Below are positions 7,772 to 8,110 of a stretch of DNA of 64,000 bases, in pieces (the stretch's first letter is position 1; each line of letters opens with the position of its first letter). Below the pieces are notes generated by a model. That model saw only the letters and a list, made by a program, of their open reading frames with translations, was not told the origin of the DNA and ran no database searches. The translations under genes were made by a program, and so were the position numbers. Location: NCBI GenBank assembly GCA_002257025.1, contig NCHA01000001.1, positions 496,001-560,000 of the forward strand, given 5' to 3'. This stretch comes from Sphingobacteriales bacterium 16-39-50 (GTDB lineage: Bacteria; Bacteroidota; Bacteroidia; Sphingobacteriales; Sphingobacteriaceae).

Positions 7772-7844
<73 letters not shown>

Positions 7845-7856
7845 CTAATATGAAAC

Positions 7857-7894: not shown

Positions 7895-7947
7895 ATAACC
7901 ATCTGCTCGGATGGTGGATCCCGATAGCTATCGGGAGGTAGACACGC
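7895..7947 (+). pseudogene. Truncated tRNA-Leu 5' fragment interrupted by a palindrome
   Basis: The 24 bp at 7895-7918 are identical to 7971-7994, which comprise the 10 bp upstream of the intact tRNA-Leu plus its first 14 bases. The copy then carries an 18-bp palindrome (7919-7936) where the real tRNA has the three bases ACT, and resumes with GGTAGACACGC (7937-7947), identical to 7998-8008. After that the similarity stops: no anticodon arm, variable arm or T arm follows. It is a broken duplicate of the tRNA 5' half and cannot make a tRNA. Confidence 0.8.
7919..7936. repeat. 18-bp perfect palindrome TCCCGATAGCTATCGGGA
   Basis: Perfect dyad inside the tRNA-Leu fragment, replacing ACT of the D arm. 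Its half-site TCCCGA/TCGGGA recurs in the palindromes at 28474-28507, so it looks like a member of a dispersed palindromic family and not part of the tRNA. Confidence 0.7.
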
Positions 7948-7980
7948 CAATTGGATTGTCAGAGCAAATTATAACCATCT

Positions 7981-8066
7981 GCTCGGATGGTGGAACTGGT
8001 AGACACGCAGGACTTAAAATCCTGTTCGCCCTAAAGCGAGTGCGGGTTCGATTCCCGCTCCGAGTA
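7981..8066 (+). tRNA. tRNA-Leu (anticodon UAA)
   Basis: 86-nt class II tRNA. The acceptor stem is GCTCGGA / TCCGAGT (first pair G-U) with discriminator A8066. The anticodon stem CAGGA / TCCTG encloses loop CTTAAAA with TAA at 8015-8017. There is a long variable arm (TCGC / GCGA around 8025-8038), and the T arm GCGGGTTCGATTCCCGC spans 8042-8058. CCA is not encoded. Confidence 0.96.
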
Positions 8067-8071
8067 CAATT

Positions 8072-8110
8072 AACCGCTTTTAGATTATTCTAAAGCGGTT
8101 TTTTGTTTTT
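8072..8110 (+). terminator. Intrinsic terminator after tRNA-Leu
   Basis: A 9-bp perfect stem AACCGCTTT (8072-8080) / AAAGCGGTT (8092-8100) is followed by TTTTGTTTTT. Confidence 0.88.

Follow-up and report, generated by a model that had tools for sequence, protein, structure and literature searches.

How did a broken copy of a tRNA gene, interrupted by a palindrome, come to lie beside the intact gene that it resembles? In the window (the whole 64-kb stretch of DNA analysed), ARAGORN places tRNA-Gly(gcc) at 7772–7845 and tRNA-Leu(taa) at 7981–8067, and a broken tRNA-Leu copy lies between them. The outer part of this dead 5′ copy (7895–7918, + strand, as are all of the following features) consists of 10 bp of upstream flank and tRNA-Leu nucleotides 1–14 (7905–7918). 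It is an exact 24-bp repeat of 7971–7994, in register with the tRNA at 7981. The 18-bp palindrome TCCCGATAGCTATCGGGA (7919–7936), read from the sequence as the D-loop hairpin of a "cap", then stands in place of nucleotides 15–17 (ACT). Beyond it, 11 bp of tRNA sequence follow as GGTAGACACGC (7937–7947), equivalent to nucleotides 18–28. The preliminary description had given these parts exactly so. A 23-bp spacer (7948–7970), which holds no GIY-YIG ORF and varies among relatives, precedes the second 10-bp copy of the upstream flank (7971–7980, by repeat comparison) and the functional, intact tRNA-Leu(taa) (Rfam RF00005, 59.3 bits). By eye, this spacer could allow pairing of GCTCGGA with TCAGAGC at 6 of 7 positions. 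The tRNA is followed by an inverted repeat (8066–8106; 15 nt, 87% complementary) and a T run, a probable terminator.

The palindrome is single-copy in the window, even with three mismatches allowed (mean expected by chance, 0.01). Rfam scans at the gathering threshold of the window and of loci L046, L086, L113, and L290 matched tRNA as the sole family. A group I intron in the tRNA was ruled out, since Rfam matches only tRNA and the window tRNA is intact. A mini-tRNA with both acceptor strands was also considered and dropped, because most other caps do not have such a 3′ strand.

We searched for the window locus in 20 genomes of the genus and could read the start of tRNA-Leu(taa) in 18 of them (all except G016 and G017). 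A capped 5′ copy is present in 8 of the 18 readable loci (the window itself, G002, G003, G007, G008, G009, G010, and G019) and absent from 10. Comparison of the window with its relatives indicates that the 24-bp repeat and the palindrome form a single 76-bp unit. G004 and G011, with flanks nearly identical to those of the window, lack exactly these 76 bp, bearing out the expectation that the feature occurs as a whole or not at all. Because an exact deletion between the 24-bp repeats gives an identical empty site, these two loci alone are compatible with either gain or loss. At this locus the palindrome has a constant 7-bp stem and variable central bases. The preliminary description had also envisaged a free 18-bp unit jumping into an already duplicated, older tRNA half. 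This idea of a simple insertion into an older duplication finds no support: hairpin and partial copy co-occur at many tRNAs, and none of the 18 readable loci has a duplicated 5′ half without a hairpin.

The states of the locus range from empty to complete among relatives, with the unit absent, present without an ORF, or present with one. G003 carries three tandem capped 5′ copies as well as a decayed ORF; behind this ORF lies a second tRNA copy, a long one, whose D and T loops both contain hairpins. Caps lie on both sides of the tRNA in G002 and G008, with no ORF in either, and the start of a similar ORF is found at a contig edge in G011. In G007, the tRNA is preceded by a 5′ cap and followed by a GIY-YIG ORF and then by a 3′ cap whose T arm holds CCCCGATTAGTTCGGGG. 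The 45 nt past this 3′ cap show 87% identity to the functional-tRNA tail of G010 and 84% to that of G009, two loci in which we saw no 3′ element; the functional-tRNA tail of G007 itself resembles the tails of genomes that do have a 3′ element, with 91% identity to the G011 tail and 87% to the G008 tail. These identities indicate that the G007 3′ cap keeps the original flank and that the working tRNA has an element-borne end. In G018 (L167), a TCCCGATATTTCGGGA hairpin lies directly upstream of tRNA-Leu with no partial tRNA copy.

A scan of a collection of 84,980 species for tRNA-like D arms that contain the window's palindrome between nucleotides 14 and 18 returned at least 118 stretches with at least 129 D-loop palindrome sites. 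Among the matches listed, every record title inspected (including L119–L156) is that of a Bacteroidota member, and the tRNA 5′ end is repeated within 800 nt downstream at 108 of 129 sites. The tRNAs that follow, as assigned by ARAGORN, are Phe, Asn, Ala, Val, Trp, Pro, His, Gly, Leu, Met-type, Lys, Arg, and Thr. A GIY-YIG ORF of ∼95 aa lies on the same strand within 700 nt downstream at 36 of the 129 sites among these matches, and only four other GIY-YIG matches occur in the 911 kb summed over the listed sites. This ORF lies between cap and tRNA at tRNA-Asn loci of Flavobacteriaceae and tRNA-Phe loci of Bacteroidales, and beyond the tRNA in other loci; in L086 the cap is on the 3′ side, beyond the tRNA terminator and the ORF. 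Small GIY-YIG proteins are encoded at L046 with tRNA-Asn, at L086 with tRNA-Leu-caa, and at L290 with tRNA-Leu-taa. At ORF-less sites among the matches listed, 19–199 nt (mostly 33–66) separate the palindrome from the tRNA repeat. Neither a tRNA repeat nor a GIY-YIG ORF accompanies 18 of the 129 listed sites, several of which are tandem-repeat contexts and not tRNAs (L044, L076, and L085). Nearly full-length tRNA-like copies with a palindrome in the D loop are seen in L124, L106, and L142, the last of which also has a hairpin in place of the anticodon arm, twice in tandem.

We also searched from the protein side, with the L046 protein as query and blind to both tRNA and palindrome. Matches were obtained in 164 of 295 genomes of the class. 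A tRNA is present at 25 of the 30 loci returned, and 21 of these 25 have a partial tRNA copy. A stricter scan finds a hairpin-interrupted copy beside 19 of the 24 tRNAs close to a GIY-YIG gene, and beside none of the 24 when the tRNA is read backwards. The corresponding count is 0 of 17 for tRNAs without a GIY-YIG gene and without a palindrome within 800 nt, controls that, being drawn from palindrome-chosen loci, were not sampled at random. In the palindrome-rich set, reading the tRNA backwards gave 2 of 59. Another GIY-YIG-linked set gave hairpin-interrupted copies at 26 of 27 tRNAs, and a looser scan found at least one at 54 of 63 GIY-linked tRNAs, many of the loci being palindrome-chosen. 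Among tRNAs of the window's own genome, 4 of 30 have such a copy, a count reduced to three after the match at L305 (tRNA-Thr) was attributed to the arms of a neighboring real tRNA; a different scan gave 3 of 29. The earlier suspicion that the feature belongs to a mobile-looking process fares well. Hairpin caps recur at many tRNAs and, seen from the protein side, usually stand beside a GIY-YIG ORF.

Hairpin borders were counted in 83 interrupted copies, after exclusion of 8 of 91 rows, which had AT-rich cores or weaker matches in the flanks. The D arm holds 36 of these hairpins, the anticodon arm 19, and the T arm 17, the other 11 being in the variable region or elsewhere. Nucleotides 15–17 are replaced exactly in 29 of the 36 D-arm copies, so the borders noted in the window are both exact and recurrent. 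The core CCGA...TCGG is found in 71 of the 83 copies and in 29 of 30 from the protein-first set; cores that depart from it include TCCCCAAC...GTTGGGGA (tRNA-Asp) and CCTGCCTGCCGGCAGGCAGG (tRNA-Leu). Hairpin and partial tRNA copy are thus found together beside many different tRNA genes, on either side and with varied hairpin sequences, and the hairpin, whose core is usually CCGA...TCGG, stands exactly where the D loop, anticodon arm, variable region, or T loop would be. A full element comprises a GIY-YIG ORF on the strand of the tRNA, one intact tRNA, and hairpin-bearing partial dead copies.

PF01541 was matched by 10 of 10 tested ORFs, a set that includes two proteins of the genus unlinked to tRNAs, and the catalytic Y, Y, G, R, H, and E residues are invariant among 12 proteins. 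The GIY-YIG match covers residues 1–77 of proteins of 94–97 aa, and the remainder is a short C-terminal helix in the AlphaFold2 model (pLDDT 92.8). The nearest solved folds are UPF0213, Slx1, and I-TevI, with only UPF0213 below an E value of 0.001. Judged by sequence, the gene carries the catalytic domain of a homing nuclease, and it adjoins a tRNA locus that is presumably its target. A median dN/dS of 0.26 (25 unsaturated of 78 pairs) is consistent with purifying selection. A tRNA on the same strand lies within 800 nt of 68 of 90 distinct GIY-YIG ORFs, and none has a tRNA on the opposite strand only. In a tree of 66 of the 68 tRNA-linked proteins, with 29 of 63 inner branches open, the proteins cluster by tRNA isotype, requiring 21 changes against a mean of 40.0 upon shuffling (as low in 0 of 200 shuffles). 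Because 21 changes exceed the minimum possible of 9, switches of target seem to have occurred.

Tandem arrays of three or four GIY-YIG genes with regular spacing occur at G142:C9:624689-626068 (four genes), G306:C12:505437-506897, G247:C1:2899220-2900416, and G160:C6:299010-300077, and they resemble segmental amplification. Another small GIY-YIG type in the genus lies away from tRNAs and is flanked on both sides by repeats (L285, L286, L292, and L293; L284 and L296), either GATTCCAGCGAAGGCTGGAATC-like palindromes or GTCATTGCGAGCG...GAAGCAATC repeats. In L299 (G019:C7:89346-91555), a GIY-YIG ORF follows a stretch that, by eye, resembles the 3′ terminus of a tmRNA gene or of a tRNA-like gene.

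We consider that the window fragment is probably a relic, namely a 5′ cap with no ORF. The element behind it would be small and tRNA-targeting, with one gene, encoding a stand-alone GIY-YIG nuclease (∼95 aa). This reading draws on the ORFs near palindrome sites, the association recovered by the blind search, co-orientation, clustering by isotype, the series of locus states, the exchanged tail in G007, and the precedent of phage SegB. From the observed association, exact borders, co-orientation, single element-borne end, and tandem caps and nuclease genes, we infer that the element is mobile and that its protein acts as a nuclease. A possible mechanism would begin with a break made by the nuclease within one arm of a tRNA gene. 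Repair against an element-bearing or neighboring copy would then place the element beside a restored, working tRNA, and the displaced tRNA end would be retained as a cap with the hairpin occupying the cut site. The hairpins may accordingly represent occupied cut sites or element ends. Repeated breaks could give caps and nuclease genes in tandem, a process with a laboratory precedent in phage SegB, and frequent later loss of the ORF could leave bare caps like that in the window.

Several observations count against the relic reading. There is no GIY-YIG match anywhere in the 64-kb window, and the L046 protein has no match in the window's own genome, where other small GIY-YIG ORFs are present, one of them beside a tRNA-Asp with capped copies. 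No ORF lies within 700 nt at 93 of the 129 D-loop sites among the matches listed. The intact tRNA should, under this reading, remain a target of the nuclease. The palindrome itself also has a wider distribution. Its 16-bp core has 32 copies in the 4.1-Mb genome (backwards control, 0) and is found in 22 of the 60 relatives, the copy number per relative ranging from 0 to 48. Of the 32 copies, 31 lie outside tRNA copies, which again speaks against a relic, and no GIY-YIG ORF was found at the own-genome palindrome loci L001–L038. G002, which is 100% complete and has the highest count (48) and caps at the window locus, likewise counts against it in having no small GIY-YIG gene. The palindrome may be common to several processes.

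The palindrome copies of this genome have mainly A and T in their flanks, with no GTAG tag seen. Many copies of CCCGATAGCTATCGGG in this genome lie within or at the edge of 6–7 bp tandem repeats (L012, L025, L035, L036, L038, and others), with units of the TTGACAG, TTGAGAG, and GGGAAAT types, away from tRNAs and GIY-YIG genes. The 18-mer was also found in 37 stretches of viral contigs. Viral spread of the element was rejected, as there is no GIY-YIG match in these 37 stretches and a tblastn search of 50,697 phage records with the L046 protein (E value of 1e-5) gave no match.

A broader interpretation, to which we give some but distinctly less credence than to the relic reading, would make these sequences a new class of Bacteroidota mobile DNA. 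Here the GIY-YIG protein would serve as the transposase or homing enzyme, the CCGA...TCGG hairpins as the ends, and extruded tRNA loops (D, anticodon, and T) as the targets, with orphan palindromes as detached ends.

The strongest of the rival explanations, which we nevertheless regard as unlikely, holds that the palindrome is REP-like and mobile, is moved by some other enzyme, and lands in the loops of DNA stem-loops; dead tRNA copies would then be safe sites and the GIY-YIG neighbors independent. It gains from the location of most of the 32 own-genome copies away from tRNAs and from the 48 copies of G002 with no small GIY-YIG gene. It also gains from nesting, since the palindrome is found within a second copy of itself in L095 and L017 (817–832) and within a G+C-rich stem in L024 (1271–1286), as if hairpin loops were targets. 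However, the hairpins in tRNA copies differ widely in sequence yet have identical exact borders, and in the two sets of tRNAs lying near a GIY-YIG ORF, hairpin copies accompany 26 of 27 and 19 of 24. The usual REP mover, the RAYT transposase (Y1_Tnp), was rejected for this role, as it has no match in G002 despite the 48 palindrome copies of that 100% complete genome.

Alternatively, the capped copy could act within the tRNA transcript as a leader or decoy RNA, with a function in processing or attenuation. Caps often begin directly after a Bacteroidota-type promoter and keep the 5′ acceptor strand and D stem, and at the window locus the hairpin combines a constant stem with variable loop bases. 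The preliminary description had named the occurrence of the fragment in distant relatives, together with conserved transcription, as a sign of such a functional RNA. The arrangement does occur in distant relatives; the inference of function drawn from it fares less well, because the orthologous locus is patchy (8 with, 10 without) and the cap can lie past the terminator, as in L086, making a conserved leader RNA a poor fit. Caps are also found on the 3′ side past terminator and ORF and in tandem copies, the anticodon arm or T loop can be replaced as well, and Rfam matches nothing but tRNA. We thus view a leader RNA as improbable.

Two further explanations are very improbable. Tandem tRNA duplication and template switching (quasi-palindrome correction) are ordinary processes that could together yield decayed copies with hairpins by chance, but CCGA...TCGG recurs with exact borders across tRNAs and positions, being present in 71 of 83 copies and in 29 of 30 from the blind set, with strict co-orientation with the nuclease ORF and 0 of 17 control tRNAs affected. 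Phages and islands do integrate in tRNA genes and restore them, but a remnant of one brought in by a tyrosine or serine recombinase is at odds with ORF-less gaps of 19–199 nt, mostly 33–66, among the matches listed, with the involvement of both 5′ and 3′ tRNA halves, and with the gene beside the tRNA, which is GIY-YIG in the full elements read, no recombinase gene being seen in the short intervals inspected.

If the relic reading is correct, hairpin-capped dead tRNA fragments would preserve, in readable form, a record of repeated attacks on the tRNA genes of many Bacteroidota, and a selfish gene of ∼0.3 kb could live in an essential gene without killing its host. The GIY-YIG protein would also become a candidate enzyme for short palindromic repeats that lack a known transposase and, should the new-class interpretation apply, the second enzyme family behind REP-like repeats besides RAYTs. 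The natural series of empty, capped, nuclease-bearing, and amplified loci lets movement be tested.

We tentatively file the element, on its sequence features, among the free-standing GIY-YIG homing-type elements. In openly licensed full texts, we found no description of hairpin-capped tRNA copies with GIY-YIG genes and no occurrence of the letters of the palindrome. UPF0213/YhbQ-type proteins, Slx1, and the catalytic domain of I-TevI have their fold and catalytic residues in common with the small proteins; I-TevI has a separate DNA-binding module, and to our knowledge none of these relatives is known as a tRNA-linked mobile element. Elements that integrate in tRNA genes by a recombinase are alike in that they displace the original end of the working tRNA and supply it with one of their own, whereas the Bacteroidota element has a GIY-YIG gene, with no integrase seen in the short intervals inspected, occurs in 5′ and 3′ versions, has a hairpin at the junction, and is well under 1 kb. 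REP/RAYT sequences and CGTC-tagged palindromes without a known transposase are short multicopy palindromes, some of them in genes, as described in parts of a palindrome survey (PMC3733652). They share short palindromes in many copies with our sequences but differ in that the own-genome copies have no GTAG tag and that the hairpins are placed in tRNA loops with partial tRNA copies. The link between capped tRNA copies and GIY-YIG genes is absent from the corresponding parts of that survey and of a GIY-YIG superfamily survey (PMC1564403).

The nearest known relative in kind would appear, by analogy, to be phage SegB, a GIY-YIG homing endonuclease of phages T4 and T6 that, according to the sections devoted to it, cuts inside tRNA genes and is required for tandem amplification of tRNAs together with its own gene (PMC13096335). 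The segB gene is located in the tRNA region of T4, as stated in part of another report (PMC2988022), and SegB homologues are described as clustering with tRNAs in phages (PMC13096335). Unlike SegB, the Bacteroidota element is chromosomal, its protein of ∼95 aa extends little beyond the catalytic domain, and its structure includes hairpin-capped dead tRNA copies, caps that go unmentioned in the SegB sections of that paper. Both systems have a free-standing GIY-YIG gene beside tRNAs, and both have tandem copies. SegB-driven amplification lets a phage escape a tRNA-cutting defense, and the tandem caps and nuclease genes of Bacteroidota would, if the relic reading is correct, parallel this amplification.
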